Part shown: one piece after another, positions 35,290 through 61,775 of the stretch | Numbering within the stretch: position 1 is the first letter of the stretch | Layout: every line of letters begins with the position of its first letter | Source: Thermococcus barophilus MP | Lineage (GTDB): Archaea; Methanobacteriota_B; Thermococci; Thermococcales; Thermococcaceae | Length of the DNA: 64,000 bases | Assembly: GCF_000151105.2 (NCBI RefSeq) | Contig: NC_014804.1 | Coordinates: forward strand, 1,600,567 to 1,664,566 | Direction: 5' to 3' | Made by a program: the position numbers and the translations under genes | Notes under the pieces: model-generated | Databases searched by the model: none | The model's input: the letters and a program-made list of their open reading frames with translations, nothing else | Told to the model about the DNA's origin: nothing

Positions 35290-35294
35290 TTACA

Positions 35295-38200: not shown

Positions 38201-38684
38201 GATGTGCCAAATAGCCCCAGATAGTGTGGACTTTGTAAACTCCAAAGTCAAGAGGCTTAATTGGATTCCCTATGTCCCCCATACCATAAATAACAGCAAT
38301 ATTGACTTTGCCCAATGATTTTATTCTCTGTGCAATATGCTCCAGTCTCTTTCTCTTCATAATGTCGTAATCTCTCAAGACCTCCTCATCAAGGAGAGCA
38401 TCGGGATGATTTAGAATGTGATACAGAGTTACCAATGTGTGTGTCTTGCCTCCACCAAAGAGCGAGTAAACCGTAAATACGTTAGTTCCTCTTCCCTCAA
38501 GTGTTGATAGAACTTTTTCAATCAAATCCAACATTGAATCGCTGAAATATGTTCTTCTAAAGAACTCCTTTGCATCAGAATAAATTTTGTGTGCTCTTCC
38601 ACTCACCACATCGTTAAGCTCTGGAGCAGAAAATTCATCAAGTGTTTCATCCATAACATCATTCCATATCTTTTCCCTTAGCAT
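35295..38684 (-). CDS. DUF499 (COG1483) large AAA-type ATPase
   Basis: About 1129 residues. The start LREKIWNDVMDETLDEFSAPEL is typical of DUF499 proteins. P-loop SLFGGGKTHTLVTLYH has Lys80, and Walker B is LIMIDEVADYG near residue 192. The C-terminal third is beta-rich. ATG 38684 follows GGTGA by five bases; a TTG at 38744 gives 20 more residues but has no good site. DUF499 proteins recur with DUF1156 methylases and helicases in defence islands of bacteria and archaea, where a role in restriction or phage exclusion is predicted. Confidence 0.85.
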   Translation of the reverse strand: MLREKIWNDVMDETLDEFSAPELNDVVSGRAHKIYSDAKEFFRRTYFSDSMLDLIEKVLSTLEGRGTNVFTVYSLFGGGKTHTLVTLYHILNHPDALLDEEVLRDYDIMKRKRLEHIAQRIKSLGKVNIAVIYGMGDIGNPIKPLDFGVYKVHTIWGYLAHLLGRYADIKAYDESLTVPDINSLRELLKEGKTLIMIDEVADYGNNLRRSNREDAKNYANNIPIFLERLSKAIIGTDNVLIVTLPIEVERGVLRETEKAYDKDYLEALWKAVAKLSGELVAPLRTERGSNDLIEVLKRRIFEKIDPNNKIKIIERYMVDMANEEIFGDTRDFLRELEVTYPFHPDYFTIMRTILERVPGLQKTRDLIKLTRKVVRRIHREEKEYSLVMPHHIDVFDNDLRGLLFQENYANYAGVVDVDLNPKVLKKYSQPELVKIIYEYIFLSTYPYDSPTPLTGFPDKFKISRGIYEVEIFEAMEWDSTKIHDAIEEIISRNYFIHLNYDDRHNVFWVWRIANVNQMVLAKKDELLRNKKGELIEKATAEIKKAIEGKPGKGKKSKGEQIKITLFEWKDVIFDPQIGDIVDDDKYKLLALYYEYVDEELLEDLILKHKGGTRKFRNTIVVTYPTPQGFNSILEAFAKVEACKEVKKEVDKIYSDYGKNVVKIQQSMIEHIENAAKDDLFTTIVQSFRKVAFPVNEGYRDSVKATEASTTSTSILETVYSVLISPEVEKVAEYLSFDELKAMLNIVGIDLSSRPYTFGEIRNYFRMNPALPMVEDERIKEALKEGLSRLEIGILTKSGKLVFKDVKEIAIVNGEIKKESTEQATIHQITLDDKILPKRIALEAQVSSLLQREETKTIERGKKKIRRKVEVFLEIDGQRIRLKDIVGDKDNISIKDEDINMLVEGNFVVVITEEELSDDFSDFEIEISPAYVSAHPEELIEVKVVIAPKDPNKSFEVKLKVDYGKLKETNGIVPFETVWHLKAPRESDEFRLYAESKDVEHVATLRVEVITPTIRTRKLTEEHIGGTLIKIENIRRLEHLKILQDAIGSEHILSGTAVIKANGSRVSMDLDRIPLDVATQVIEDSKEYLDGSDELNVDVTIQGEITITELLLKKLSVLNDKVTFVVELRR

Positions 38685-38736
38685 TTCACTCACCAGAGTA
38701 ACTTTGTTTCCAATCTTTTTATGTTCTTCGGATAGA

Positions 38737-39064
38737 CTACCCAAATATCTTCCTTTTGAGCTTCTTAGCTAAGTACAATATTCTAATTAACATGTGTATG
38801 CTCCACTCCCAGGATTCAAAGAGCCCTCTGAGGAAATAGAGTCCAATTATCCATCCCATTAGATATCCAGTTGACCAGTAGTTCATCTTTAGGAAAAGGG
38901 AGTAAAGAGAAACAATTGCAACAAGATAGGCTACTATGTACCCCATTTGTGAGGTTATTCCAAGCAATGGTGGGATAACTCTTGTTAATTAGGTAATATC
39001 CAACTGTTCCTGTACCTGCCACTGCTGCGGCTCTCCTAAAGCCATGTTTTATTCCACCCGCCAT
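38737..39064 (-). pseudogene. Small membrane protein, probably frameshifted
   Basis: Two overlapping minus frames share the segment. The first (39064 down) reads MAGGIKHGFRRAAAVAGTGT and then GYYLINKSYPTIAW, then turns into unlikely Cys-rich sequence. The second, from about 38985 to the stop at 38737, reads VIPPLLGITSQMGYIVAYLV and on as two membrane helices and a basic tail. Joining the frames near 38980 gives one plausible membrane protein of about 105 residues. Alternatively the second frame is a separate 76-residue protein starting at a TTG (38967). No family is known. Confidence 0.35.
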
Positions 39065-39077
39065 GCAACCACCATTA

Positions 39078-40509: not shown

Positions 40510-40518
40510 GATGCATCA

Positions 40519-40569
40519 CATTAGTAATATTAGCAAATCCTTTTTAAACATTTACTAATATTACTAATG
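40519..40569. promoter_or_regulatory. Inverted-repeat operator around the promoter of the AbiE-like pair
   Basis: Arms CATTAGTAATATTAG at 40519-40533 and its exact reverse complement at 40555-40569 are separated by 21 bases that contain the TATA-like stretch. Each arm has an internal ATTAG repeat. The right arm runs into the end of the 40564-40929 gene. Confidence 0.65.
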
Positions 40570-40929: not shown

Positions 40930-40983
40930 TTTGATCCCCAGACAAATTTTAAGGTAATGGAAAATTCAAATAAAACGAAAAAA

Positions 40984-43900
40984 TCAGCTCCCAATAATCT
41001 CCATCAATGTCTTCTGAGGCTTCTTTATGAGTTCGAGCTTCTCTGCAATGTTCTCAGCAAGCTTGAACTCCACATCGTCCCATCTTAGGTTCTTTGCCAT
41101 GCTTGTGAATATCAAAGCCAAGTTTGTAGCTTCTTCAACAAGGCTTTGGTACTTCTGCTTGAGTTCGTCGTATCTTCTCCTGAACTCGCTCTTTGGATGC
41201 CTCTTTGCATAATACTCGAGGAGATGCAAAGCATCAATGGCGTTCTTTGGCTTTGGATTTGCAATGTCAATACCCCTGCTCTTTAAGAAAGCCTCAAGCT
41301 TAGTTAGGTTGTCGCTCTGCGGTGAGTTGAGCTGGTAATACTTTGAGCTTCCCTCTTTCTTCTCCAAGAGTATCTTGCTGCTGATCAGCTCCCTTGAGTT
41401 TGTTTCTGTTGCTATCGAGAGCAGGACAACATCATTTGATGAAACCTTTGCCTTTCCAAAGAGAAGCTTGGCTAAGAGGTAGAAGAGAGCCTCCTTTGAT
41501 GAGACTCTGCCGTGAACTTCCTGAGCCAAGGCTTTTGCAATGGCTTGGGCTGATGCTGGATAAACGTATTTTTCAAGAATTTCAAGCACGGGGAGTTTGG
41601 TTCCATACCTCTGGACTTCCTCATACTCGGTGATCACGCTCAAGGCTGAGGCTATTACTCCATAAAGCAGATCCAGACCAGTGTAGCCATGGGCTAAAAG
41701 CTGTCTGGCTTTTTCTTCAGCAACAAGCTGTATCTTTTCCGTGAAGCGGACTTTTTTGACTTCGCCTGTGTATGGATCTTTGTATTCAACAAAATCTCTG
41801 ACATCAACGACTTTTTTGCCATCTCTCTTGACCTTACGCCAGACTGCTATGATTGAAGTATCAAGGGAAAGCTTTCCTCTCGACATTATGCTCGTTGCCG
41901 ATTCTGTGCTCAGTGGAATTGCGGTGGTGATTTGTAACTTTGCACCTTGCCAGCCTGCTTCAATTAGAGTAGCCCAAGCATCAAGGGATGTGTGGGCATA
42001 GTAGGTTGCCAGGATTCCGTCATCTTTAAGGTTGGTCTTCATTGCTATGAACGCCTGAGTGAAGAGATTTTTGAAATGTTCCTTGGCGAGCTTTTCTTTT
42101 TCTCTCTCAGTAAAGAATCTTGCAGAGAACTCTGAGACCTCTTTGCTCGCAAACTCCTTCCACTGGACTTCCCTCTCCCTGTACTTCTTTCCGATCTTCT
42201 TGAAGAAAGCTTCGCTGTGAAATCTGGGGACAAGCTTGTTTCCTTCAACGTCACTCAAGGCCCTCTTGAGCCAAACATAGTAGAAGTCGCTAAGCTCCGC
42301 ATAGGGGACGTCAATTGAGTAAGGCGGGTCGGTCACGATGACGTCGAACTTTTCAGGCAAGTTCAAAGAGGTCGCGTCGCCCTGGATTACCTTGACGGTG
42401 TTTGAGGAAAGCCCGGTGAGGGTCCTCTGGCCGGAGGAGAGGGCGGAGGTAAGATACCCTATGGCATTCTTTAAGTTAGGGAGGTTTCCAGAATATGTAA
42501 GAGGTAAATCTTTTACTGCGGGAATTTCACACCAGTTCCATTGCATTGCAATGCCCCTTGAGCTTAATGTGTGAGCAACTTTATTATCACTCCAAGAGCC
42601 AGCATTCCATAGTGTGTTTATTGAATTGTAATCTGCATATCTTCCTAAAGCAATTGCCAAATACGTCGCCACAGCCTCCGCATATTCAAAGGCCTTCTCT
42701 TCCCCCCAGCCCTCCTTGAGCTTCTCCTCCTCGACTTTCCTGCCAACCTCGCGGATTAGTCTTAGGATCTTAATCAGCGTGAGGAGCTGGCGGGGGTTGA
42801 ACAGCTTGTACCACTGGTCAAAGCCCCACCCAATTATCTGCAACGCACCGAAGAGTAAGCTACCATAGGGCGGAACGGGTTCCCTTGGAATATCCGGGTT
42901 TCCCTTCTCCAACAGCTCTTTAACTTTCTCCTTAGCTTTCTCCAACTTTGCGTTGTCTTCTTTGGTTGCTGGTTCAAAGACCAAGTCTTTGTCTTCAATC
43001 TTTACTTTAACAAGCAACCTCTGCCTTGCATAGCTTTCGTCACCCTGATGATACTTTTTGAGGGCAAACTTGATGTAAAATTCTCCTTCTCCCTTCTTTC
43101 CAGTGTAGTGGTTGCCACTCTCATCAACGAATCTCATGACGTTCCCACAGTTTAAGCAGAACGCCTGCTGTCTCCTTGACTCAATGTTGCTCTTTGGAAC
43201 ATCAAAAACAACGATCTCTTTTCCATCAATCTTTCTAATCTTTGCGTCAACTTCCCCTTTCTCGATCTTAGGCTTAAGCTCCTTGACTATTTCCTCATCT
43301 TCAAAGACTATCTCTCCTTTTCTCGTATCAACTCTGGCGTTTGAAACATCACCCACTATTCGGTTTAAATCAACGACTTCAATCTCAATGCCATTCTTGG
43401 CTCTCTTGGGCTTCATGTAAGCTAAACGCTGATACTTGCCTTTGCTGTCCTTAACCCTTGCAAGCCACCAATTGCCCACTATCGGCGTCCACTTTCCACA
43501 GTGGGGGCATTTAACTTCCCACGTGCCAATGTAAACGGCGACATCATCGTCATAAAGCTCTCTGAGCTCTGGGTCGTTTTTGAGCTGCCCAGTAATCCAG
43601 TTGCCCCATTTTGCAACATCATAAACCAAAGCGGGAACTTCAACATTTGCAACTATCTTTTTCTTTGCCTCTCGTGCGTAGCTGTTTAACCCTAAAGCTT
43701 CAAGCTCTTTAACTGGAACTTTCACCTTCAGCCTTCCAAACTTCTTTGGGTATTCAAGAACAGCCTTGAGGAAGACGTAAGCGGTTGGTAATAGCTCAAC
43801 AGCGGTAACATCCAAACCCAAGCGGAGTCCTTCAAGCGGAATGCTTCCAAAACCCGCGAAGGGATCAAGAAGCTTTTTTCCTTCAAAATATTGCTTGTAT

Positions 43901-44157
43901 TTATCTGGGATTTGAGGATTAAAGCGATGAGGACTTGTCTTCTCATTGAGCCTTATTATTTTCTTAAACTCATTGGTATCGAAGTCCTTTGGAAGCAATG
44001 CTCCTGCTATTACAGCTCTTGCTCCAATTAACGGCTTCCTTGTCCACCAGAAGACCATCTCCCAATAAGGTGGTCTCGCCGGTCCCTTTTCTTTAGCACT
44101 TTTTTCATTAATTTCCCTTATGGGAAAGTTTGGGCTTTCAAGAAAAGTTCTTTCCAT
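40984..44157 (-). CDS. DUF1156 (COG1743) adenine-specific DNA methylase with zinc ribbon
   Basis: A 1057-residue methylase. The DUF1156 N-terminus is intact (REINEKSAKEKGPARPP then YWEMVFWWTRKPL). SAM motif I is LLDPFAGFGSIPLEGL (Asp98) and the catalytic motif IV is TDPPY (Asp610-Tyr613), typical of N6-adenine methylation. Two CxxC pairs, C217/C220 and C334/C337, form the zinc ribbon. GGTGA precedes the ATG. It heads the leftward operon that ends with DUF499 and the SNF2 helicase. Expected to mark self DNA; the recognition sequence is unknown. No adjacent type II endonuclease is seen, so the ATPase/helicase pair is the likely effector. Confidence 0.88.
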   Translation of the reverse strand: MERTFLESPNFPIREINEKSAKEKGPARPPYWEMVFWWTRKPLIGARAVIAGALLPKDFDTNEFKKIIRLNEKTSPHRFNPQIPDKYKQYFEGKKLLDPFAGFGSIPLEGLRLGLDVTAVELLPTAYVFLKAVLEYPKKFGRLKVKVPVKELEALGLNSYAREAKKKIVANVEVPALVYDVAKWGNWITGQLKNDPELRELYDDDVAVYIGTWEVKCPHCGKWTPIVGNWWLARVKDSKGKYQRLAYMKPKRAKNGIEIEVVDLNRIVGDVSNARVDTRKGEIVFEDEEIVKELKPKIEKGEVDAKIRKIDGKEIVVFDVPKSNIESRRQQAFCLNCGNVMRFVDESGNHYTGKKGEGEFYIKFALKKYHQGDESYARQRLLVKVKIEDKDLVFEPATKEDNAKLEKAKEKVKELLEKGNPDIPREPVPPYGSLLFGALQIIGWGFDQWYKLFNPRQLLTLIKILRLIREVGRKVEEEKLKEGWGEEKAFEYAEAVATYLAIALGRYADYNSINTLWNAGSWSDNKVAHTLSSRGIAMQWNWCEIPAVKDLPLTYSGNLPNLKNAIGYLTSALSSGQRTLTGLSSNTVKVIQGDATSLNLPEKFDVIVTDPPYSIDVPYAELSDFYYVWLKRALSDVEGNKLVPRFHSEAFFKKIGKKYREREVQWKEFASKEVSEFSARFFTEREKEKLAKEHFKNLFTQAFIAMKTNLKDDGILATYYAHTSLDAWATLIEAGWQGAKLQITTAIPLSTESATSIMSRGKLSLDTSIIAVWRKVKRDGKKVVDVRDFVEYKDPYTGEVKKVRFTEKIQLVAEEKARQLLAHGYTGLDLLYGVIASALSVITEYEEVQRYGTKLPVLEILEKYVYPASAQAIAKALAQEVHGRVSSKEALFYLLAKLLFGKAKVSSNDVVLLSIATETNSRELISSKILLEKKEGSSKYYQLNSPQSDNLTKLEAFLKSRGIDIANPKPKNAIDALHLLEYYAKRHPKSEFRRRYDELKQKYQSLVEEATNLALIFTSMAKNLRWDDVEFKLAENIAEKLELIKKPQKTLMEIIGS

Positions 44158-45833: not shown

Positions 45834-46265
45834 ATGACGTATTGGCTTTGCATTACAAACCGTGACAATTGGGAGGTTATCAAAAAGAAGAACATCTGGG
45901 GAGTGCCAAAGAGGCACAAGAACACTATTGCAAAAGTCAAGCCCGGTGATAAGCTTGTCATTTACGTGAAGCAAGAAAGAAAAGATAAGCAAATCCTCGA
46001 GCCAAAAATTGTAGGAATTTTTGAGGTTATGAGCGAGCCTTATCAGGACTCGACAAAAATTTTCAAGTCTCCACCACATTTAAACGAAACTTATCCCTTA
46101 AGAGTCAAAATTAAGGCCATAAAGCTTGGAGAGGTTGAATTCAAGCCTTTAATTCCAAAGCTGAACTTCATCACAAACAAGAGGAAGTGGAGCGGACATT
46201 TAATGGGCAAGGCCATGAGGGAACTGCCTGAAGAAGATTACAAGCTGATAGAGAGCCTGCTTTAA
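45834..46265 (+). CDS. EVE-domain protein
   Basis: A 143-residue PUA-like EVE domain, full length. [24 protein letters not shown] at the start, [12 protein letters not shown] near 45, [14 protein letters not shown] near 62 and the C-terminal [16 protein letters not shown] are family features. EVE/YTH-like pockets bind modified bases (5-methylcytosine, N6-methyladenine), and the domain is often fused to or near restriction and other defence genes. GGTGATT precedes the ATG. Beside a DUF1156 adenine methylase, a reader role for modified DNA is a fair inference. Confidence 0.82.
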
Positions 46266-46389: not shown

Positions 46390-47700
46390 ATGTCCAAGTT
46401 CTATGATCTTTTTGCTAAAGAGTTAAGGTCAAAGAGAGATAAATGGAAGAAGAGATACCATTCACTTCCAAATACACTCGAAAAATTCCTAAGAGGAAAA
46501 TTCAATAAATTCTGGAAACCTGTTAATCTAAAAGATTATGAAAGAAATCCCAAAGAGTTTAATATTCTTGCTGTTGATAGCAGTTATCAGGCTGAGTCCC
46601 TCAAAAATGGCGGGATATTCTATGCAGTCAGAGCTCTTGGGATATCCAAAGACAAAGAATACCGTGATTTAATAGTTGATTTCGACTATGCAGATGGCCC
46701 GGTTCACAATGTAACTCATTTTCTTCAGAGAAAAATGGAATATCTGGAGATTAAAGTTGCTGCAGATGCAATTTTCGACGGCTTCAATGGGACTATCTTA
46801 ATTGATGGCTCAATCTACGGAAGAATATCCCACCTAATTGAAGAAGGCCCTATGAGCAACGATAGAGGCTTTTTCATCGAGTATTACAAAGAAGTCATGA
46901 GGCTCTTTAAGCTTGCTAAGGAAAATGAAGTGTTACTTGTAGGAATCAGCAAAGAAAGCAGAAGCCGCTTTTTCAGAGATTTTCTTGTTAAAAACTTAGT
47001 TTCTTTAGACGAAATTAGGGGTGATGTTCCACTTAACGAGGTTTTTCATTTGTTGTCTCTGGCATTAGATCAGAAGAGAAAAGCAATTAAGATATTGGAC
47101 TCCTTAAGGAGGCAGTACGAGAATATCGGATTACTGGATGAGGTCTTGAAAGAATTGCTAACTCCCAGACCAGATTACCAGCTAATTGATAAATTTGCTC
47201 AACAGCCAGGTTACACGATTCCGCTGTTACTGGGGCCTTCTGCGAGATGGCTTCGTGGTATTGAACAAATAGAAAAGGATCCAGAAGGATACATTGAAAG
47301 TCATTTTCCAACTCTGTTTTCAGATCCCAATTTTGTCAGTTATGCAAAAGTCATTCTAAAGACTATTCCTGACCTTCCTTCCATAATCTCAATGCATGTA
47401 CTACCAGATGTCAATGACTCTCCTCTCAGAATAGATATTCCAGCTTTCTGTTTGGGAAATGATGTTAAGTTAAAAGAAATTGGATGGCCAGAACCATTTA
47501 CTGGAACTCTCGATCAAATTTTTGAAATCATAGCTACTGGATATGGAGGGCTGGAATTCTACAATATTTGGCTTTGGAAAGTTGATAGGGAGGTTAAGTT
47601 TCATAGGCATGAGTTTGATGAGCTGTATTTCTCTAAGTTTAAAGAAGCTATTGGGGTGGAAATAAATGCCCGAGATTACAGAAGAGTTAGGTTCCTTTGA
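46390..47700 (+). CDS. nurA: NurA-family 5'-3' nuclease
   Basis: A 436-residue NurA. The first catalytic Asp is D63 in FNILAVDSSYQAES; ILIDGSIYGR near residue 137 carries the next acidic residue, and VGISKESRSR near 179 is the basic strand. NurA dimers attach to hexameric HerA and resect DNA ends. The gene starts the rightward operon and overlaps herA by 35 bases. Order here is nurA-herA-X-mre11-rad50, unlike the usual chromosomal herA-mre11-rad50-nurA. Upstream is an AT-rich promoter region (TTTATTTATCTAA). Confidence 0.85.
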   Translation: MSKFYDLFAKELRSKRDKWKKRYHSLPNTLEKFLRGKFNKFWKPVNLKDYERNPKEFNILAVDSSYQAESLKNGGIFYAVRALGISKDKEYRDLIVDFDYADGPVHNVTHFLQRKMEYLEIKVAADAIFDGFNGTILIDGSIYGRISHLIEEGPMSNDRGFFIEYYKEVMRLFKLAKENEVLLVGISKESRSRFFRDFLVKNLVSLDEIRGDVPLNEVFHLLSLALDQKRKAIKILDSLRRQYENIGLLDEVLKELLTPRPDYQLIDKFAQQPGYTIPLLLGPSARWLRGIEQIEKDPEGYIESHFPTLFSDPNFVSYAKVILKTIPDLPSIISMHVLPDVNDSPLRIDIPAFCLGNDVKLKEIGWPEPFTGTLDQIFEIIATGYGGLEFYNIWLWKVDREVKFHRHEFDELYFSKFKEAIGVEINARDYRRVRFL

Positions 47701-49264
47701 AAAGATTGGAGTTGTTACTGGAGAAAGCACCCATGTCGAGTTTTATTTTGCAGTTGAAGATGAGAAAATGCCACAAGTATGGGACTATGTGGTTGTTCCG
47801 TCAAATGAATTGATTGATGGAGAGGAAAAAAGAGTCTTGGTGTTGGGGCAGATAACTTCAATAATAGCATATTCTCCAGGATTGACAGAATATGTGCCAT
47901 ATTCAGTGGCTGAAAAGCTTAAAGAGGCTGAAATAATAGAGCCAAGAAATCTTGCCAAAGTTAAAATTCTTGGATTTCTTCATAATGGAACTGTTCTAAT
48001 GCCTCGACGAACTATTTATCCCGGAACCTATGTGTATTTGGCTCCTGATGACATTTTAACTGAAGTTTATTCATATCCAGAGGAAGAGGGTCTTTACATA
48101 GGCAACTTAATAACAAGACCAAGCGTTAAAGTCAATCTCACGATTAGGGGATTTAGACGGCATTTGGCTATCTTGGCACAAACAGGTGCAGGAAAAAGCT
48201 ACACTGCCGGCGTATTGCTTGAAGAACTTTACAAAAAAGGAGCCACTGTCATTGTGTTAGATCCCCATGCAGATTATGTGTTTATCTCAAAAGATCCAGA
48301 AGGAAAGAAAAAAGTGCTAAAGAGGGTTAGAGTATTTAGAACCTTAGAAAGTACTGGAAGATACACAAAAGAAGAAATTGGGCACGTGGAGACTTTTGAA
48401 ATTAAGTTTGCAGACTTGTCTCTTGAAGAAATCTTTACAATAGCTGGAATCAATGAAAACTGGACCAACATTATGAAGGCTATTGAAGATGCTTTGGAGA
48501 GATTAAAGAATAGCAGTAAGAATTACACGTTAGATGACTTGATTACAGCATTGCAGACTTCAGATAACAACAACGCCCTTCGTGCTCTCACGTACATAAA
48601 GAGACTCAAAAAACTCAAAGTATTTGGAGACTCAACCACCCCAATAGGAGAGTTCCTACAACCCCAAAGCATTGCAGTTATGGATCTCTCTGGATTAAAT
48701 GATAATGTTGCGGACTACATAGCTTACAAAATACTTTCAGAGGCGTACAATCAAAGAGAAAGTGGTAAATATGAGTATCCAATCTTTATTTTGATCGAAG
48801 AAGCACACAGATTTATTCCTAAAAACCAGAATACTCTCTCCAAAAGAATCGTTAAGAAAATCGCAGCAGAGGGTAGAAAATTTGGAGTCTTCTTGATTTT
48901 AGTAACTCAGAGACCCCAGAAAATTGATAGCGATGTTCTGAGCCAATGTAACAGCCAGATAATCATGAGAATGACGAATCCTGAGGATCAAAAAGCCGTC
49001 AGAATGAGTGCTGAGCAGGTTAGCGAGGATCTTCTTAGAGATTTGCCAGGATTAAATGTTGGAGAGGCTATTATTGTTGGGGAAGTTACTAAGATGCCGG
49101 TTATGGTCAAGATTAGAAAACGCATGACCAAAGAAGGTGGAGCAGATATTGACATCGTTGCAAAGCTTAGAGAAGCAATGAAAGCTGCTGAGGAATACGA
49201 GAAAAACTTAGACAATGTAATAAGGGAAGAATTGGAAAAAATAAAGAGTATTGTGGAAGTGTAG
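47666..49264 (+). CDS. herA: HerA hexameric DNA translocase
   Basis: A 532-residue HerA/FtsK-type ATPase. The N-terminal HAS barrel (FEKIGVVTGESTHVEFYFAV) is followed by the RecA core: Walker A TGAGKS at residues 173-178, Walker B IFILIEEAHRF near 370, arginine/sensor region VTQRPQKIDSDVLSQCNSQIIMRM near 415. It pumps DNA into NurA. GGGGTGG precedes the ATG, which lies inside nurA. Length is close to chromosomal HerA. Confidence 0.92.
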   Translation: MPEITEELGSFEKIGVVTGESTHVEFYFAVEDEKMPQVWDYVVVPSNELIDGEEKRVLVLGQITSIIAYSPGLTEYVPYSVAEKLKEAEIIEPRNLAKVKILGFLHNGTVLMPRRTIYPGTYVYLAPDDILTEVYSYPEEEGLYIGNLITRPSVKVNLTIRGFRRHLAILAQTGAGKSYTAGVLLEELYKKGATVIVLDPHADYVFISKDPEGKKKVLKRVRVFRTLESTGRYTKEEIGHVETFEIKFADLSLEEIFTIAGINENWTNIMKAIEDALERLKNSSKNYTLDDLITALQTSDNNNALRALTYIKRLKKLKVFGDSTTPIGEFLQPQSIAVMDLSGLNDNVADYIAYKILSEAYNQRESGKYEYPIFILIEEAHRFIPKNQNTLSKRIVKKIAAEGRKFGVFLILVTQRPQKIDSDVLSQCNSQIIMRMTNPEDQKAVRMSAEQVSEDLLRDLPGLNVGEAIIVGEVTKMPVMVKIRKRMTKEGGADIDIVAKLREAMKAAEEYEKNLDNVIREELEKIKSIVEV

Positions 49265-49931: not shown

Positions 49932-51074
49932 ATGAGAATTGCCCATATTTCTGACACTCATTTGGGATATCGGCAGTACAACTTAGATGAAAGAGAAAAT
50001 GACATTTATGATGCTTTCAATGAAGCCATTGACATCATAATTGAAGAAAGGGTCGATGTAGTTATTCATGCTGGAGATTTCTTTGACACTCCGAGACCAC
50101 CAATCAAAGCCCTTTATGTGGCAAAGGAAGCAATTAAGCGATTGCATGAAAATGGGGTTAAGATTTTAACAGTACTTGGGGAACATGATACTCCAAAGAG
50201 AAGAGCAATGCCACCACATAAGCTTTTGGATATCCCCATTCTAGGAATTGGAGAGGTAAATGTTGTGGAAGTCAACGGAGTTGGATTTTTTGGAATATCA
50301 AACATGAAAGGGAAAAGGGTTGACCTACTAAAACAAGAGCTTTCAAAAGTTGATGCTCTAGCGAACAGATATTCAAAGGCTGTCTTAATTGCTCATCAGG
50401 GCATAAAGAAATACTTACCCTTTGAAGGTGCATATGAGCTTGAACTTGGGGATTTACCAAAGGAAATAGACTATTATGCATTTGGACACATTCATAGGAG
50501 AACCTTTGAAAAGTTTGGCAGAGGATATTTAGCATATTCGGGCTCAATTGAAATACTGAGTCGCAGTGAAATAACCGATTGGAAAAGAGATGGAAAGGGC
50601 ATCTACATTGTTGATCTCGAAGGGGACCTCCCAGAGGTACATAAAATTTCCCTCCAGCAAATACGCCCTCAATTTGAACTTTCATATTCCGAGGGTGATG
50701 TTATTGAAGAATTAAAGGCTTTTCTCTACAATTTGCTTAAAAATCCTCTAGATAAATCCCCCATCTTGAGGATAAATATCAGTGGAGAGGGTATCAGAAA
50801 ACCAGAAATCCTTGAAAAGGTCCAATATTTGCTAAGAAAAATGGTTCCAGAAAAAGTGTTAAGGTATGATGTCCATTTTGTTGGAAGTGATGCCCCCATT
50901 ACCATTACTGCAGAAGAGCTTGGCAAGATTGTAGATTTAGAGGAACTTTTCATAGAGTACCTTGGGGATGAAACCTTAGGTCATTTAGCATTCGAACTTT
51001 ACAAATCCCTTCAATATGGAGACGTTGAGGGAGGAATAGAGATTTGTAAGGAATACTTGGAGGGAAGGAAATGA
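49932..51074 (+). CDS. mre11: Mre11-family nuclease, element-encoded
   Basis: A 380-residue calcineurin-like phosphoesterase. Metal ligands: D8 and H10 (ISDTHLGY), D49 (AGDFFD), H85 (GEHD), His of LIAHQG near 155, and GHIH near 180. Position 84, Asn in the GNHD motif of Pyrococcus Mre11, is Glu here (GEHD), a change in the active site worth checking. The rest includes the capping domain. It overlaps rad50 by four bases. With Rad50 it processes DNA ends and hairpins. Similar in length to the C-terminally complete archaeal proteins (about 400). Confidence 0.88.
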   Translation: MRIAHISDTHLGYRQYNLDERENDIYDAFNEAIDIIIEERVDVVIHAGDFFDTPRPPIKALYVAKEAIKRLHENGVKILTVLGEHDTPKRRAMPPHKLLDIPILGIGEVNVVEVNGVGFFGISNMKGKRVDLLKQELSKVDALANRYSKAVLIAHQGIKKYLPFEGAYELELGDLPKEIDYYAFGHIHRRTFEKFGRGYLAYSGSIEILSRSEITDWKRDGKGIYIVDLEGDLPEVHKISLQQIRPQFELSYSEGDVIEELKAFLYNLLKNPLDKSPILRINISGEGIRKPEILEKVQYLLRKMVPEKVLRYDVHFVGSDAPITITAEELGKIVDLEELFIEYLGDETLGHLAFELYKSLQYGDVEGGIEICKEYLEGRK

Positions 51075-53689
51075 TACTAAGGAGGATTACTATGAAGAAT
51101 TTCCTCTCACATAAGGATACAAAAATCGATTTCCCTCTTGGTGTTACAGTCTTCATAGGGCCTAATGGTGCTGGAAAAACATCAATAATAGATGCTATTT
51201 TTGTAGCACTCTTTAATACCCTCCCACGTGGAGACAAGTTTGACGATATTATCTACAGGGGGGAAAGAGAAGCAAAAATAGAACTAGAATTTGAAGAAGG
51301 TGGAATCCCATACAAAATTGTTTGGAGAAGAAAAAAGGGAAAGAGCTCCCCAACTTATGAACTTTATCGGCTTGACAAGAATATGCTTATTGCACATGGA
51401 GTAAAGGCAGTTAAAAAAGAAGTTGAAAATATTATTGGTATCGAAAAAGACTCGGCTGTTAACTCAATACTCATAAGACAGGGGGAGATTACGTCTTTAC
51501 TAGACCAAGCGCCAGCAAAAAGAAAAGAAATCATCGGAAAACTGCTAGGACTAGAAAAGCTAGAGAAAGCTTGGCAGTTTATGAGAGAAGTAATTGACCA
51601 TTTTGAACAGATTAAAAATGACCTGGAAAAAGAGATCGCAGAAATTGGAGGAGAATTAAGGAGTAAAAGTGAACAAAGAGAAAAACTCAAACAAGAAATA
51701 CAGGAGTTAAAAGAGAAAATAAAAGAGCTTGAACAAATATTAAAAAAGCTTGAGCATCAACTTGGCGAGATTAAACGAGAATTGGACGAACTAAATGAGA
51801 AAGAAAAAAGATACAATGAATTGATGATAGAATTGGCCAAAAAAACTGAAGGAATAAAATCCGTACAAGAACAAATTAAGAGGCTTGAAAAAGACCTAAA
51901 TGAATCCAAAGAAGCTAAGGAGAAAGTGAAAAAATTAGAAGAGGAAATTAAAAAGATACCCTACCTCGAAAAGTACATCAAATGTCTTAACGAGCTCAAG
52001 GAATTAAACACAGAAAAAGAGCAATTAAATGCCGATTTAAGTAAAATATTGGAAATAAGAAATGAAGCCAATGAAAAAATAACAGTTTTGTGTGAGAAGT
52101 ATGGTGGGAACATTGAAGATAGCAAGGAAGTTGGGGAACTACCCAGTGACCTAGCGGAGATTGCTAAATTTGTCTCGAGAATTTTTACATGGGTAGAGAG
52201 TATTGTCCAGCAAATCGAAGAAAAGCACAAGGAGCTCGAAAAGTTGATTATCAAGGCTCTAGAAGTCCTGCCTGAAGCAACAATCGAGGCCAAAGAAAAG
52301 AAACTACAGGAGCTCAAGGAGGAAAAGGAAAGATTAGAAAATGAAATATCTAGGTTGCAGAATGAAAAAGGCAAACTAGAAGGAAGAATAAACGACTTAC
52401 AGCAAGCTTTAAGCATGCTTGGCGAATCGGACACATGCCCCGTTTGTAAAACAAAGTTAACACCAGAACATAGAGATAAAGTAAAGTCTGAAATGCAAGA
52501 AGAAATCAGAGGTCTAAAAGAAGAAATAAGACAAAAAGAGAAAATGCTCATAGAAGTATCGAGACAATTATTAGAAGTCGAAAAGAGAATTGAGCAAGTA
52601 TCAAAGGTAGACATAGAACGTATTGAAAGATTGAAAAAAGAAATAGAAGAAAAGAAAAAAGAACTTGCGGAGCATTACAAAGAACTGCAAAGAATAATAA
52701 CAGGACTTAATGATATTGAAAATGATATTAGGTCAAAAATTTCAGATATTGAATCAAAGATAAAGGAGATCGAAGAGAAACTCAATGAACTTATTAAAGA
52801 GATTGGGCATAAACTTGAAGATCCAGAAAATGAACTGAAGGAATTAAGAAAGAAAAAGGAAGAATATGACCGTCTAAAGCCAATTGCAGACAAATATGAG
52901 GAACTGCTTAAAGATCTCAAAGAAAAACAGGAAGAATTAGAACAATTAGAAAGGGAAAAATGTAAACTTCAAGAAGAAATTGAAAAACTTGGATACGACA
53001 AAAAACATCATGAGGAAGTTAGAAAGAAGCATGAAGAATTATTAAGACAGTTTGAAAGAACTAAGGCTGAACTTGAAGAGAAAAATAATTCATTGAAAAA
53101 GAAGTTGGAAGAACTAAACGAAGTGAAAGAGAAAATAAAAGAACTCGAAGAAAAACTCAATAATCTCGAAGCAGAGTTAGATAAGGTTAAAAAGTTCATA
53201 AATGATTTAGAGCGTATTAGGGCCGCATATCACAAAGATGGGGTTCAGAAGCTCCTTCGTAAAAAGTTTGCTCCAGCATTATCAGAGCTGGCAACAAATT
53301 ACATTGAGAGTTTCAATATGGACATAACAGACATTTACCTTTCCGAGGACTTTGATATTTCAGTTACTAAAAACTCTGTAGAGGTTCCAATATCTCTCCT
53401 TAGTGGTGGTGAGAAAGTTGCTGTAGCTCTTGCGTTGAGGTTGGCGATTGCGAGGGTTCTTGCAAGAAGGCTTTCAGTGATAATAATGGATGAGCCAACA
53501 ACACATTTGGATGAAGAAAGACGGAGAGATTTAGTAGAAATTCTCGGAAAGTTCTTTAAAGCTGAGAATACAGTGCCACAAATAATCATTGTAACCCATC
53601 ATAGAGAGCTTGAAGACGTGGCAGATACAGTGTACATTGTCCAAAAGGTTGATGGAATTTCAAAAGTTGTTGAAAGCTCTCCTTTGTAA
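51071..53689 (+). CDS. rad50: Rad50-family SMC-like ATPase, element-encoded
   Basis: An 872-residue Rad50, close to the 880 of Pyrococcus. Walker A GPNGAGKT at residues 30-37, Q-loop near 140 (ILIRQGEI), two long coiled-coil arms, zinc hook CPVC at 456-459, ABC signature LLSGGEKVAVALALR near 776 and Walker B VIIMDEPTTHLDEE near 803. All ATPase and hook elements are intact, so it should dimerise and drive Mre11. Last gene of the operon; a T-rich stretch follows the stop. Confidence 0.93.
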   Translation: MILRRITMKNFLSHKDTKIDFPLGVTVFIGPNGAGKTSIIDAIFVALFNTLPRGDKFDDIIYRGEREAKIELEFEEGGIPYKIVWRRKKGKSSPTYELYRLDKNMLIAHGVKAVKKEVENIIGIEKDSAVNSILIRQGEITSLLDQAPAKRKEIIGKLLGLEKLEKAWQFMREVIDHFEQIKNDLEKEIAEIGGELRSKSEQREKLKQEIQELKEKIKELEQILKKLEHQLGEIKRELDELNEKEKRYNELMIELAKKTEGIKSVQEQIKRLEKDLNESKEAKEKVKKLEEEIKKIPYLEKYIKCLNELKELNTEKEQLNADLSKILEIRNEANEKITVLCEKYGGNIEDSKEVGELPSDLAEIAKFVSRIFTWVESIVQQIEEKHKELEKLIIKALEVLPEATIEAKEKKLQELKEEKERLENEISRLQNEKGKLEGRINDLQQALSMLGESDTCPVCKTKLTPEHRDKVKSEMQEEIRGLKEEIRQKEKMLIEVSRQLLEVEKRIEQVSKVDIERIERLKKEIEEKKKELAEHYKELQRIITGLNDIENDIRSKISDIESKIKEIEEKLNELIKEIGHKLEDPENELKELRKKKEEYDRLKPIADKYEELLKDLKEKQEELEQLEREKCKLQEEIEKLGYDKKHHEEVRKKHEELLRQFERTKAELEEKNNSLKKKLEELNEVKEKIKELEEKLNNLEAELDKVKKFINDLERIRAAYHKDGVQKLLRKKFAPALSELATNYIESFNMDITDIYLSEDFDISVTKNSVEVPISLLSGGEKVAVALALRLAIARVLARRLSVIIMDEPTTHLDEERRRDLVEILGKFFKAENTVPQIIIVTHHRELEDVADTVYIVQKVDGISKVVESSPL

Positions 53690-54189: not shown

Positions 54190-55446
54190 TTATGAAGCAA
54201 TAATGAGATAATTCATGGCAAGCTGAGACTTTCTTGGAACAATTAAACTGCCTGCGATAATCTGGTAATAAGATGCTACTATGCCATAATCCCTGTTGGG
54301 TGTTGCCACCCTCTTGCATGACCCACCCTCATCAATTCCAAAGAGTTTTCGTTGCTTTGGAGTTAACACTCTGAGGTCATAGTAAATCTGCTTATAGTAC
54401 TTCCACAGTTCACTGATCCTCAAGGCATCGTAATGCATGTTATGGACATCTCTAACAGGACTATGGCCCATTATCTTTCTTCCAGCCGTCAGGACACGGT
54501 CATTTGCAATACCCTTAGCCTCGGCTTGTCTTCTCCACTCCTGCGCAAATATTTTTCTGAAAAATTTTAGCTCGAACTCATGAATTCCGTCAGAAACTTC
54601 AAACTTCATGATCTCGCGGTTTTCTTTGATAATCTTGTGAAGGAAGGTGTCTTTAAAGTACTTCTTATTCTGGTGTATGAAAAGATAACCACCTCTATCC
54701 TCTATTTCCTTTCCGTACTTTGTGAGATAAAACTTCAATGCAAGCTCAGCCTCTCTTGTTAGAAAGGCAATCTTAAAATAACCTGTCGCATTTCTGAGTC
54801 TTCCTTCCTTTGTTTTACTAGCATCAAACTTGACTTGATGCAACTTGATGTTGATCATGTCAACGGTTGTTTGGGCGACCTCACTTACTCTCCTACCTGT
54901 CGAGAATAACAGCAATGCAAAGACTACTGCTTTTACATATCTACTTTCCGAGAGCTTTCCACTTTCAAATAGCTTTTCTAACCTAGCAAAGAACTCCCGA
55001 GCATCTTCAATTGTTACATCAGGGGTGTCATCTTCCAATTTTGCTATCCACGCATCTTTTGTTTTTCTAAGTGGCGCATCTAACACTTCAATAACCTTCG
55101 CTGGCGCCCCCAAAAGTCTTAGCATCATCTTCACGTATCTCATCCGCTTTAACTTAGCAGACTCCCCATAACCTGCCCGAGAAAGTGCATCTACATACTC
55201 ACGCAAGATGTCTTCCGATATTTCATACACTTCAACTTTCTCAGGAGCTTTTGGATTTTTTCCTTTAACGAGTTCCCCTGTCTTAGTAAAGTGCAAGAAC
55301 TGCCAAATGTAGCGTTCAATTTCTTTTCTTGATGATTCTGAAAGTTCTTTTGTATGGTCTGCCAGTAGTTCTTCTATGTCTTCACTAGTGAATTTGTATT
55401 TAACATTGTTACCTTTGTACCGGAGCCATATGGTTTCACTAGCCAT
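54190..55446 (-). CDS. Second tyrosine recombinase/integrase, uninterrupted
   Basis: A 418-residue tyrosine recombinase. Core-binding domain at about residues 35-135, catalytic Arg in STGRRVSEVA near 185, Lys in ASKTKEG near 215, FFRKIFAQEW near 290, KIMGHS near 320 and Tyr of NMHYDAL near 333. It is homologous to the split integrase (FAQEW, GHS, HY and the C-terminal YDLRVL) but carries about 60 extra C-terminal residues with a Gly/Ser/Cys turn. GGTGGGAG precedes the ATG. It is transcribed away from the Argonaute gene. It may be left from a second element or help excise this one. Confidence 0.85.
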   Translation of the reverse strand: MASETIWLRYKGNNVKYKFTSEDIEELLADHTKELSESSRKEIERYIWQFLHFTKTGELVKGKNPKAPEKVEVYEISEDILREYVDALSRAGYGESAKLKRMRYVKMMLRLLGAPAKVIEVLDAPLRKTKDAWIAKLEDDTPDVTIEDAREFFARLEKLFESGKLSESRYVKAVVFALLLFSTGRRVSEVAQTTVDMINIKLHQVKFDASKTKEGRLRNATGYFKIAFLTREAELALKFYLTKYGKEIEDRGGYLFIHQNKKYFKDTFLHKIIKENREIMKFEVSDGIHEFELKFFRKIFAQEWRRQAEAKGIANDRVLTAGRKIMGHSPVRDVHNMHYDALRISELWKYYKQIYYDLRVLTPKQRKLFGIDEGGSCKRVATPNRDYGIVASYYQIIAGSLIVPRKSQLAMNYLIIAS

Positions 55447-55681: not shown

Positions 55682-58186
55682 ATGTCGCCTAAGAGTAAAC
55701 AAGCAACAATACTTGAGTTTTTATCTGTAAAAGGAAAAGACAAACAACAGAAAACAATCAAGTCTCAACCATTGATGAAATCTTCTGAACCAGAAGAAGA
55801 AAGTTTTCCTCTCGTAGAAGTTGATTCGGAATGGAATATCATTAGAATAAATCCTGAGATTGCCAAATCTCTATTTGCAAAAACCGTAAAAACTTACTAT
55901 GGATTAGGCAAAAATTATGTCGCAGAGAATTTACTGCATGACGAAGAGAAAGTTGAGTTTCTAAGAAGAGTCTACGAACTTTTCCCCTACAACTATCTTG
56001 CAAAGTCAGAAAATGGAATTCCCTACTACGAGTATTACTCAACAGCAGAAAACATTGACGCTGACATAGTAGACCATCTCCAACTTATCAAGATTGGCGA
56101 ATATCATTGGGAAGAGCTTGATCCACACATAGCTGTGCGTTTAATCACTGCACACATTCGCTCTTCTTTCGGGGAGTTCTTAAAGAACAAACTATCCTCA
56201 AGAGAATTGAAGGATGTATGGATAAGACTTCCAAAAGGGAGAGAGCGTGTATCATTGGAATTCGTGAAGAAATTTGAGCTTGGAACATTAGGGTACTCAA
56301 TAGAAGATGGAGAAATCTGGATGGCACTTAGACGGCGCTCAAGTGCTAGTGCTGTACTACTTGCAGACTTTCCCCCTAAAGTTCTCGAATATGTTATGAT
56401 TAAGCTAAAGAAGCTGGCCGAAGAAGCAGTAAAGCAAGACTACAGAAAAGTGAGGATTTACAGCGAGACACAGCCGGGTTCTGGAACGGCGGCAGTTATT
56501 GATGTTATCATTGGACATGACAACGTAATTCGCTTTCTTGAAGAACATCCAAAAGGGGCTTTTCACGTGAAGAAGAGATTAGAGGAGCTTGGAAAAAGTC
56601 TTGATGATGTCAATTATCTACTCATAGGAGTTTATGACAACAGCATTTCTCTCAAAAGGGCACTAGAAGATGAAAATTGCCAGTACTACTTTACAGAGCA
56701 CAATGCTTATCTTGTTCTAACAACTGAGGTCCAAAAGGAGCTATTTGGAAGAATTGTAGATGATTGGAGAGGAGAGATTGTTGAGGAATATCGGGAAAAG
56801 CTGAACGAAATAACAACTTCAGGAAAATTATTTAGTCAAGTCTCCGGAATCAAGGGAATCACTGTAAATATTCGTGAGAATCTTCTTGTAAGAACCCTTA
56901 AGGGGGAAATAACTGTCAAAGATGTCAAGGATATTATGAGAGATGAGTCAATATTCCTCAATCTCCTTCCAATTTCTGAAAAAATTCTCAATGAAACAAA
57001 GAGACATAATCTCAGATTGCTTATTTTCTACCCGAAGAAATTTGATGAACGCATTAGGAAATCAATATTTCTCGATCAGATAGAAAGACTAAGAAATGGA
57101 TTATTATCAAACTCATTTTCCAGCGTTGATGAAGTTGATCTTATTCCAGTTAGTAGAGACAGATCATTGGACTACCACAAGACCATGCTTGAGGCTGGGT
57201 TGGATAAAGTTAGAGACTACACTCTCGCAACAATTATTTTTCCTGAGCAGTACAACAAGCGCGATCTTGAGCTGAGAGAGTTTTACAACTGGCTTAAAAA
57301 AGAGTTTTATGACGAGACAAAGCCACTTGTGTTTCAAGGAGCTAGAGTTGAATCTGTTTTTGGAATGTACAAGCGATATGCAGTGCCTAATATTGTTCTT
57401 CAAATGGCGGCTAAGCTTGGTGTCTATCCATACAGTCTTGAAACGAGTAGTGGATATGATTACATAATTGGTATTGACTACACGTATTGGCACGAGAGAG
57501 ATGCTGTATCAGTTGGTGGTGGAGCTGTCGTTGTTAGCCCATCCGGTTTGATAGAAGGCATTTATCCGATAGCAATACCATCTAAAAGGGAATCATTAGA
57601 TATGAAGGAGATACTCCAAGAATGGTTCCTAAAGACTGTTCAGAATAATCCAGAGATCATGAAGCAAGGAAGAGTTACGGTGCTGATATCCAGAGATGGT
57701 ATGGTTCCAAAATATGAGAGGAACAGAATCCAAGAGTTTCTCTGCGAGTATTCAGATGAACTTGACATGACTATTGAAGCTGTGGAAGTTAGAAAAAGGA
57801 TTCTCACTAGGATCTGGTCATTGGATGGACCAAATACCTTCTATTCGCCAGTTAAAGTTGGCAACTACACTTACTACATGGTCAATGCTCACGCTGGCTA
57901 TCCTCTCAGAAGAAAAGAAAGGAAGATTTATTACTCAAAGCCCTATCTAATTGGGAGTCTTTATCGCTTCCAAAGTGGTAAAGTGCAACCTATTCACGGT
58001 AGTGCAAGTAGACATCTTGTAGAGTCATTAATTCGTCTTCAGAAAATCAATTACACTACGACAAAAATGGACAACGTGAGATTGCCTCTCCCAATAGACG
58101 TCACTCATAAGCTAATAAATTTCATCAGAGACGTTAACATGAGGGTAAAAAGAGTTGGAATTCCAAACAGCCTCTTCATGGCTTAA
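55682..58186 (+). CDS. ago: Prokaryotic Argonaute, catalytic, with N-terminal PIP-box-like motif
   Basis: An 834-residue long-type Argonaute. PIWI tetrad is complete: D599 (IGIDYTY), E637 (SKRESLD), D672 (LISRDG), H809 (DVTHKL), the DEDH set of Pyrococcus furiosus Ago, and H809 sits the same 25 residues from the end. The MID segment YAVPNIVLQMAAKLG fits 5'-end binding. N-terminal about 60 residues are extra, and residues 7-14 QATILEFL match the PCNA-interacting (PIP) pattern Qxx[ILM]xx[FY][FYL]. So it is likely a DNA-guided endonuclease that can bind the sliding clamp. TATA-like CTTTAAAAAG at 55639. No partner nuclease is fused. Confidence 0.93.
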   Translation: MSPKSKQATILEFLSVKGKDKQQKTIKSQPLMKSSEPEEESFPLVEVDSEWNIIRINPEIAKSLFAKTVKTYYGLGKNYVAENLLHDEEKVEFLRRVYELFPYNYLAKSENGIPYYEYYSTAENIDADIVDHLQLIKIGEYHWEELDPHIAVRLITAHIRSSFGEFLKNKLSSRELKDVWIRLPKGRERVSLEFVKKFELGTLGYSIEDGEIWMALRRRSSASAVLLADFPPKVLEYVMIKLKKLAEEAVKQDYRKVRIYSETQPGSGTAAVIDVIIGHDNVIRFLEEHPKGAFHVKKRLEELGKSLDDVNYLLIGVYDNSISLKRALEDENCQYYFTEHNAYLVLTTEVQKELFGRIVDDWRGEIVEEYREKLNEITTSGKLFSQVSGIKGITVNIRENLLVRTLKGEITVKDVKDIMRDESIFLNLLPISEKILNETKRHNLRLLIFYPKKFDERIRKSIFLDQIERLRNGLLSNSFSSVDEVDLIPVSRDRSLDYHKTMLEAGLDKVRDYTLATIIFPEQYNKRDLELREFYNWLKKEFYDETKPLVFQGARVESVFGMYKRYAVPNIVLQMAAKLGVYPYSLETSSGYDYIIGIDYTYWHERDAVSVGGGAVVVSPSGLIEGIYPIAIPSKRESLDMKEILQEWFLKTVQNNPEIMKQGRVTVLISRDGMVPKYERNRIQEFLCEYSDELDMTIEAVEVRKRILTRIWSLDGPNTFYSPVKVGNYTYYMVNAHAGYPLRRKERKIYYSKPYLIGSLYRFQSGKVQPIHGSASRHLVESLIRLQKINYTTTKMDNVRLPLPIDVTHKLINFIRDVNMRVKRVGIPNSLFMA

Positions 58187-59686: not shown

Positions 59687-59720
59687 AATAACAACCAATA
59701 ATTTTTTATTGGTTGTTATT
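59687..59720. promoter_or_regulatory. Inverted-repeat operator of the second AbiE-like pair
   Basis: AATAACAACCAATAA at 59687-59701 and its exact complement at 59706-59720, with a four-base T spacer. A TATA-like TTTAAATAAC overlaps the left arm, and the start codon follows at once, so a bound repressor would block initiation. The natural candidate is the protein encoded next. Confidence 0.7.
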
Positions 59721-59724
59721 CAAA

Positions 59725-60360
59725 ATGAATATCATGAGATCAATTACCCAAATACTCCTGGCTGAATTTGGGGGCAAAGTCATTACAAAGGAAGAGCTGG
59801 AAAAGTTTTCCACTTATTTGAAAGTAAATGATGTAGATTACCTCGTAAACTATCTCATTCAGTATGGCTACATCATAAGAATTCTAAGGGGACTCTATTA
59901 TGTTAAAACTCCCATTGAATTCTCTTTTAAGAGCTCTCCCACAATTTACAAACTCCTCTCATTGGGGATGAATAAGATAACGAAAAACTGGTACTTTGGC
60001 CTCTTCACAGCATTAGTTCTAAATGGATTAACTCACGAGCACTACACTACAATCTTCATAATCAACGACAAGATCGCAAGGACAAAAATCATTCACATAA
60101 ATGGAACTCCCGTCAGAATAATCAAAACCAAAAGAGAGCTATTTAACTTTGGAATAATCGAAAAAGATGACATGAAAATTTCTGATTTAGAAAAAACACT
60201 TTTAGATTTCCTCTACTTTGGAAACTATGGGACAATTTCAAAAGAACTGGCTTTAAGAATCTGGAGGGAATACAAAGATAGTGCAGATTGGAAGAAGTTG
60301 AAGAAGTATTTGGAGAAATATCCGGAGTCCATTGCAAAGGTGGTTGATGATGTTGAATAA
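59725..60360 (+). CDS. AbiEi-like antitoxin/transcriptional repressor
   Basis: A 211-residue protein. The N-terminal winged helix (LAEFGGKVITKEELEKFSTYL; LIQYGYIIRILRGLYYV) is typical of AbiEi, followed by the alpha/beta domain with the ISDLEKTLLDFLYF segment near residue 160 that is common in AbiEi relatives. Start ATG 59725; a TTG at 59713 lies inside the operator. The transcript appears leaderless. It overlaps the toxin gene. Confidence 0.75.
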   Translation: MNIMRSITQILLAEFGGKVITKEELEKFSTYLKVNDVDYLVNYLIQYGYIIRILRGLYYVKTPIEFSFKSSPTIYKLLSLGMNKITKNWYFGLFTALVLNGLTHEHYTTIFIINDKIARTKIIHINGTPVRIIKTKRELFNFGIIEKDDMKISDLEKTLLDFLYFGNYGTISKELALRIWREYKDSADWKKLKKYLEKYPESIAKVVDDVE

Positions 60361-61366
60361 TGAACTTCTCTTCAAAATCAGGGAGAGTGAGAGGAAAGGC
60401 TTTGCCAATTTTGTTTCCAAGAAGGTTGGTATTAAAAACGTAGACATGGTTGAGTGGGACTACATTATTCACACCATCCTCAAAGAGCTTAAAAAAGACC
60501 CTCATTTTAGAGAAAACTATGTTTTCAAAGGTGGGACATACTTGGTTAAATGTCATCTGGGCTACTACCGCTTTAGCAGGGATTTAGATTTTGCCTATAG
60601 AAACAGTGAAGAACTCCAAGAGATGTCAAGGAGTAAACTCAAGAAATTTCTAAGTGAAGAGACGGGAAGAATTGCTGAAACACTGAATTGCATTGCAAGA
60701 GACTTGGGATTGGAGTTTTACTACAGAGATCATAACGACTTTAACAATCACCGCTACTTTAGCTTTTTGATAGGGCCTGGCTGGTTTAGAGAAATAATTG
60801 CCTATTCCCCAGCGGGAGAAAAGATAAAACTGGAGTTCAACTATGCTGAAAAGTTCGCATTTAAACCCAAAACAGCAAAAGCACACACTCTTCTGTCATG
60901 GAAAAAGGCAGAATTAAAAGTTAGGGATTATGAGAAATACATTGAGTTCTTCGGGAATCATTATCCCATTAGGGTTTCAGCATATCCGGATAAGGAAATT
61001 TTGATTGAGAAAGTGAGGGCTATTCTAACAAGGAGAGAATTCAAACTGCGTGATTTGTATGACCTTTACAAACTCCATCAGGTTAAAGGGCTGAAAATTA
61101 AAAAATATGAGAAGCAAATAATAATGAAGGTGAAGAATTACATCAGCCTAAGCAACAATGCACGTGAGAACCTCTTGAAGACCCTTGAAGAACTCAAGCG
61201 AGAGGACTACTTGAATGTGCTCAAGCCAGAAGTTGAAAAAGATGCTGTCCTTATTGTTGAAGAATTTGACAAGGATAAGTTCTTTGAGTTTGTAGAATCT
61301 CTCAGGAAAGAATTGCTGGAATTAATTGAATCAGAAGGATTTGCAGCCCTCATTAAAGAGTGGTAA
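60350..61366 (+). CDS. AbiEii-like nucleotidyltransferase toxin
   Basis: About 338 residues. The nucleotidyltransferase core is clear: YVFKGGTYLVKCH near residue 60 and FSRDLDFAYRN near 75 (DLD metal ligands), then IKLEFNYAEK as the third acidic strand; the C-terminal EILIEKVRAILTRREFKLRDLYDLYKL segment is typical of AbiEii/AbiGii toxins. GGTGG lies just before two in-frame ATGs (60347, 60350). It overlaps the antitoxin by 11 bases. Likely an NTP-dependent modifier of tRNA or another target; may also stabilise the element as an addiction system. Confidence 0.82.
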   Translation: MLNNELLFKIRESERKGFANFVSKKVGIKNVDMVEWDYIIHTILKELKKDPHFRENYVFKGGTYLVKCHLGYYRFSRDLDFAYRNSEELQEMSRSKLKKFLSEETGRIAETLNCIARDLGLEFYYRDHNDFNNHRYFSFLIGPGWFREIIAYSPAGEKIKLEFNYAEKFAFKPKTAKAHTLLSWKKAELKVRDYEKYIEFFGNHYPIRVSAYPDKEILIEKVRAILTRREFKLRDLYDLYKLHQVKGLKIKKYEKQIIMKVKNYISLSNNARENLLKTLEELKREDYLNVLKPEVEKDAVLIVEEFDKDKFFEFVESLRKELLELIESEGFAALIKEW

Positions 61367-61505
61367 CAAAAGACTTCAGGTCATGTAACCCCCTTGAAAA
61401 TCGAACCATCTACAGCTCTTAGATCATTTTTGATCAGGGCATGAAAAAGACTTATTAATATCAAAGAACACATTAACAGGCTGAAAACTTTCCGTGGTGG
61501 CGGCC

Positions 61506-61775
61506 ATGCAAAGACGAAAAAATGGTTCGAACTTAGAACCTGAGGGATGGGTCACGGGACACAAAAATGGTCTCGCGACCCATTATGAAGAAGCGCCAGA
61601 AGAGAAGTTTCCAGCCAATGGGCTTGAGTTCTTCATGGAATTGTTCGGTAGGGCTATGGGAGCAGTGTTTAGAGAAATTGCAGAGCTCTATGGTAGCCCC
61701 GCGGGGATTCGAACCCCGGTCGCGGGATCCAAAGTCCCGCATGCTTGGCCGCTACACCACGGGGCTGCCCGATAG
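61506..61775 (+). CDS. Integrase N-terminal fragment int(N)
   Basis: The frame from ATG 61506 (or GTG 61494) runs into the tRNA-Gln sequence at 61691 and ends at 61775 in chromosomal DNA. The true integrase part is residues 1-76, ending PVAGSK at 61734, in the same frame as int(C) when joined across the repeat. It contributes the helical N-terminus (LEFFMELFGRAMGAVFREIAEL). On its own it has no catalytic residues, so the element's integrase is inactive while integrated. Confidence 0.88.
   Translation: MQRRKNGSNLEPEGWVTGHKNGLATHYEEAPEEKFPANGLEFFMELFGRAMGAVFREIAELYGSPAGIRTPVAGSKVPHAWPLHHGAAR
61691..61734. repeat. attR: 44-bp tRNA-Gln 3' half, part of the restored tRNA gene
   Basis: Exact copy of 27673-27716. 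Here it is contiguous with the tRNA 5' half, so integration kept a working tRNA gene; the 3' half now comes from the element. Confidence 0.95.
61691..61766 (-). tRNA. tRNA-Gln (UUG), integration target
   Basis: Minus-strand cloverleaf of 76 nt with encoded CCA. Acceptor AGCCCCG pairs with CGGGGCU, anticodon stem CGGGA/UCCCG encloses loop CUUUGGA (anticodon UUG), and T arm is CCGGGGTTCGAATCCCCG-like. No intron. Its 3' half is duplicated at 27673 by the mobile element. Confidence 0.95.

Follow-up and report, generated by a model that had tools for sequence, protein, structure and literature searches.

The long active archaeal Argonautes (pAgos), such as PfAgo, MjAgo and TtdAgo (which we take to be the protein of structures 8jsi and 8wd8), have in common a PIWI domain and a DEDH catalytic tetrad. 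The origin of the guides in pAgos, and the way in which own DNA is told from foreign DNA, are open problems. In Archaea, the counterpart of RecBCD in DNA-end processing is the NurA-HerA-Mre11-Rad50 set. In bacteria, pAgos obtain guides from replication termination and from RecBCD-processed breaks, and a role in replication has been documented for them (PMC10269773). An Asgard short-pAgo-like operon includes a PCNA gene (PMC11217426). On the side of the clamp, the archaeal PIP-box clients RFC-L, RNase HII, NreA, Pab0431, NucS and TIP share a KQxxhxxF[FL]-type motif at the extreme terminus. RFC-L, RNaseH2 and NreA are PCNA partners (PMC4929162) and the PHP protein Pab0431 pulls down PCNA (PMC3820547). 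TIP, found in Thermococcales, is proposed to have a likely PIP box at its N-terminus, joined by a short linker, a precedent for N-terminal placement. In the papers that we found, no Argonaute figures among the archaeal PIP-box PCNA clients.

We have analyzed a stretch of 64,000 nucleotides of the Thermococcus barophilus MP genome (the window, Table 1) that codes for an Argonaute which, judging from its sequence, is probably tethered to PCNA through a PIP box in its tail and might be fed with guides by a linked resection machine. The ORF list and the translation place the gene exactly at 55682-58186. By its domain and its tetrad, the product is classified as a catalytically complete long-type prokaryotic Argonaute. 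The PIWI domain was above the cut-off (Pfam Piwi, E=2.6e-11; 43.8 bits against 28.9) and the PADLOC pAgo/PprPIWI models matched at about 1e-28. There was one clear solved relative, 8jsi/8wd8 (E=3e-11 for 8jsi), with about 30% identity over PIWI to the TtdAgo type. The 834 residues are a fitting length for N and PAZ domains, and there were zero matches to the N and PAZ models of Pfam; AlphaFold, run on the single sequence, gave a mean pLDDT of 37.8. A previous reading made from the sequence only had claimed a complete DEDH tetrad spaced as in PfAgo. The four residues D599, E637, D672 and H809 are indeed present, invariant with the two nearest relatives (L002 and L007) and matched to the D/E/D/H of 8jsi. 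The spacing agreed in part when a TtdAgo-type protein of Thermococcales (L006) was taken as reference in place of PfAgo itself: the D-E distance was the same (38), but D-D was 73 versus 70 and D-H 210 versus 187. Compared with PfAgo, MjAgo and TtdAgo, the window Argonaute falls in a separate clade together with L002 and L007, has an N-terminal tail bearing the PIP-box-like motif and is carried by an integrated element.

Table 1. Coordinates of the features described, numbered from the first nucleotide of the window
Feature	Coordinates	Strand	Evidence or remark
Left attachment repeat, 47 nt	27673..27719		46/47 identical to right repeat
int(C), catalytic C-terminal part of split integrase	27673..28759	+	46% identity with int(C) in the G015 element
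SNF2-type helicase (Hma-like trio)	32001..34859	-	Family match
DUF499/HmaC-like ATPase	35295..38744	-	Family match
DUF1156/HmaB-like methyltransferase	40984..44157	-	Family match
Element NurA	46390..47700	+	Pfam NurA, E=1e-12
Element HerA	47666..49264	+	NCBIfam HerA models; distinct from host core HerA
Element Mre11	49932..51074	+	NCBIfam Mre11_Sulfo 285 bits versus Mre11_Pyroc 111; Sulfolobus-type best
Element Rad50	51071..53689	+	NCBIfam Rad50 models
Second tyrosine recombinase, between Rad50 and Argonaute	54190..55446	-	Pfam Phage_integrase E=1e-4, below cut-off; relative in G015 element, 37%
TATA-like box TTTAAAAA	55640..55647	+	Sequence; putative promoter
Argonaute, 834 aa	55682..58186	+	ORF; PIWI domain at residues 536-811
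Hydrophilic N-terminal tail, residues 1-43	55682..55810	+	Alignment; missing from two nearest relatives
PIP-box-like motif KQATILEFL, residues 6-14	55697..55723	+	Translation; host-genome pattern census
Catalytic D599	57476..57478	+	Alignment with 8jsi and two nearest relatives
Catalytic E637	57590..57592	+	Alignment with 8jsi and two nearest relatives
Catalytic D672	57695..57697	+	Alignment with 8jsi and two nearest relatives
Catalytic H809	58106..58108	+	Alignment with 8jsi and two nearest relatives
AbiEi	59713..60360	+	PADLOC match
AbiEii	60332..61366	+	PADLOC match
int(N), N-terminal part of split SSV-type integrase	61494..61737	+	Frame open into int(C)
Right attachment repeat, inside tRNA-Gln	61691..61737		tRNA 61691-61766 on - strand

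The PIP-box pattern reported by that reading, Q7-A-T-I10-L-E-F13-L14, can be read directly in the translation, with K6 immediately before it. This Qxxhxxaa-type motif lies in a hydrophilic terminal segment (K8 E6 S7 Q4 P4 over residues 1-48, which carry zero net charge), a composition that suggests an accessible and presumably flexible tail. An extension had been noticed as well, and it exists, but relative to L002 and L007 its length is about 40 residues and not about 60. Both relatives begin some 12 residues ahead of a conserved W-N pair that corresponds to residues 51-52 of the window Argonaute, and the tail missing from them indicates a lineage-specific addition. Their starts near the aligned W-N block would also be in keeping with translation from M32 (55775), which would leave the tail untranslated and turn the motif into an upstream artefact, and a strong Shine-Dalgarno sequence is missing at 55682. 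Against this, the TATA-like TTTAAAAA precedes the ATG at 55682 by about 35 nt and none was seen before 55775, the frame is open across the entire tail, and the specificity of the motif at the level of the genome would have to be a coincidence. We consider the M32 start very improbable; translation starting at 55682 is consistent with the position of the TATA-like box, which falls short of proof.

A more serious alternative is that the motif arose by chance in a fast-changing low-complexity tail, the Argonaute being an ordinary DNA-guided defence nuclease with no clamp binding. Many proteins were inspected at the first reading and, from the residue frequencies, a loose PIP regular expression should be found within the first 20 residues with p ~9e-4 per protein, that is ~0.14 times over the 163 ORFs scanned, among which the Argonaute was the only terminal match. 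Away from the termini the same expression was not commoner than chance (2 seen against 4.2 expected), which speaks against a chance match. So does the full thermococcal form of the motif, with the preceding lysine, for which the probability within the first 20 residues dropped to ~3e-5 (residue frequencies of the same 163 ORFs). Across the DNA of the host genome, we collected all the sites from which K-Q-x-x-[ILMF]-x-x-F-[FL] could be translated and read them in frame. There were 24, of which only six fell in reading frames of 200 codons or longer: RFC-L, RNase HII, NreA, a TIGR00375/PHP protein (of the Pab0431 type), a lipoprotein signal peptide and the Argonaute. The other sites were in frames shorter than 150 codons, mostly probably non-genes. 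Thus, in ORFs of this size the form otherwise appears only at the C-termini of PCNA partners (in all four at most 3 residues from the end) and in one signal peptide. The host RFC-L motif, KQATLFDFL, is nearly identical to the KQATILEFL of the Argonaute, and the last position is L in the Argonaute as in all four partners. The six terminal matches compare with ~0.13 expected by composition (Poisson 6e-9), although we settled on the KQ form only once the Argonaute motif had been seen. Two of the matches in the host genome were N-terminal, one of them the false positive of the lipoprotein signal peptide; a looser N-terminal pattern gave 315 sites and was left out of the analysis. The census is strong circumstantial support but not proof, since the pattern was post hoc and signal peptides mimic the motif at N-termini.

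The distribution of the motif among homologues also favors a chance origin. Searching 94 genomes of Thermococcales with the Argonaute as single query, we found matches in five besides the host, and a profile search added one further genome (G053). The nearest sequences, L007 (genome G113) and L002 (genome G015), are 25-27% identical over the full alignment, and no close homologues appeared in the genome contigs, viral contigs, plasmids and phages searched. In the tree the window Argonaute (P0001), L002 and L007 form one clade with support 100/99, a grouping with which the pairwise searches agree (the tree contains two wrong rows that should be ignored, L153 and L154, both of them Rad50-like proteins from the neighbourhood). 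The sequence-only reading had looked to conservation of Q7, I10, F13 and L14, and there was none: the two nearest and about 36 other archaeal Argonautes, from searches that spanned some 700 archaeal genomes, all lacked the motif when both ends were read (0 of ~38, including a few fragments whose 5' ends are open). As a singleton, the motif gains no evidence from conservation. This result points to either a lineage-specific gain or chance and is not a clean refutation, because L002 and L007 lack the entire tail and are only 25-27% identical. Weighing the homologues against the census, we regard the chance match as unlikely. The interpretation of the motif as a PIP box has on its side the census and also the clamp of the host, a single PCNA match that aligned closely over its full length with solved Thermococcus and Pyrococcus clamps including 1ge8/1isq; the homologues devoid of the motif count against it.

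A real PIP box could also serve another end. TIP, with its likely N-terminal PIP box, blocks PCNA-PolB and PCNA-Fen1, and an element-borne protein might likewise compete for PCNA, inhibiting or hijacking clamp clients for replication of the element instead of aiming a nuclease. The intact catalytic tetrad, and an element with no recognisable polymerase or clamp among the families assigned, make this quite improbable in our opinion. In the tethering model that we prefer, the Argonaute would have gained a flexible tail whose PIP box docks in the client pocket of the host PCNA. The nuclease would then be kept on clamp-carrying DNA, that is, replicating DNA, recently repaired DNA and incoming replicons, while the NurA-HerA-Mre11-Rad50 set of the element would produce single-stranded ends or fragments to become guides. 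We infer PCNA binding, tethering, guide supply and a role in defence. Such an Argonaute would differ from RFC-L, RNase HII, NreA, Pab0431, NucS and TIP, which are replication or repair proteins with the motif mostly at the C-terminus. It would resemble TtAgo, SeAgo and LrAgo, pAgos tied to replication termination and with guides from DNA-end processing, but these are bacterial and RecBCD-dependent, and no clamp-binding motif is reported for them in PMC10269773. If true, docking on the clamp would join a pAgo directly and physically to the machinery of replication.

The resection cluster of the element and the Argonaute do not form one operon, since two genes on the opposite strand lie between them. 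A closer association was found in other archaea. In G320 (L165:8211-14485) and G234 (L166), which represent one lineage, Mre11, Rad50 and Argonaute are adjacent on one strand. Two genomes of a single genus, with clusters unlike in gene content and identity, have the orders Argonaute, 1388-aa protein, NurA, HerA, Mre11, Rad50 (G531, L177:7944-19001) and Argonaute, NERD-helicase, NurA, HerA, Mre11, Rad50 (G532, L176:8370-18914). These gene runs are apparent operons in three other lineages. In G087, HerA adjoins the Argonaute. Three independent Mre11-Rad50 linkages in about 20 neighbourhoods correspond to a p of the order of 1e-3, a rough estimate that assumes a ~1% chance for each. The passages searched of the pAgo surveys had no mention of Rad50 or Mre11, limited evidence of novelty given such partial coverage of the literature. 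The recurring linkage of Argonaute with Mre11-Rad50 (and NurA-HerA) suggests the archaeal RecBCD counterpart as a guide-making or partner machine, as reported for bacterial pAgos. We only tentatively propose the complete scheme, a clamp-tethered and resection-coupled Argonaute with a dedicated NurA-HerA-Mre11-Rad50 guide source within a wider archaeal system of Argonaute plus resection.

Some features of these clusters deserve mention on their own. The element HerA is 50% identical to the Argonaute-linked HerA of G531. That the NurA-HerA-Mre11-Rad50 set is nothing more than the core operon of the host was ruled out for HerA (the rejection covers this gene only) because a core HerA of 581 aa is located elsewhere in the host genome and is found in 7/7 genomes of the genus. 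The 1388-aa protein of G531 (L177:10517-14683) had no Pfam match and ends in SYHSFFKK, loosely PIP-like with the glutamine missing.

That the Argonaute is element-borne, as the sequence-only reading had it, is borne out by its location inside a 34-kb integrated element of the SSV type, delimited by attachment repeats that match the 3' part of tRNA-Gln. When the ends of the element are joined across the attachment site, one open frame runs to the int(C) stop and codes for an SSV-type tyrosine integrase. A tRNA attachment site and an integrase split on integration are common to the SSV-type elements of Thermococcales; what differs here is the cargo, made up of the Argonaute, the Hma-like trio, AbiE and the second NurA-HerA-Mre11-Rad50 set. 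The trio SNF2-DUF499-DUF1156 resembles an Hma-like defence set. In G571 (L174:7-14081) an SNF2-DUF1156-DUF499 (Hma-like) trio precedes an Argonaute, and in the window the trio (32001-44157) and the Argonaute are on one element. At 39078-40509 there may be a second AbiE-like pair, recognised only by eye and with no Pfam match, and a divergent TATA-binding protein paralogue is found on the element at 45215-45739. In G113 the Argonaute adjoins an ATPase 50% identical to that at 28883-29968 of the window. The Argonaute of G015 is likewise located in an element with a split integrase and a second recombinase. An EVE-domain protein at 45834-46265 of the window is 91% identical to its equivalent in the G015 element (L037:4891-5322), both elements being Argonaute-bearing and otherwise divergent, an identity that suggests a recent exchange between them.
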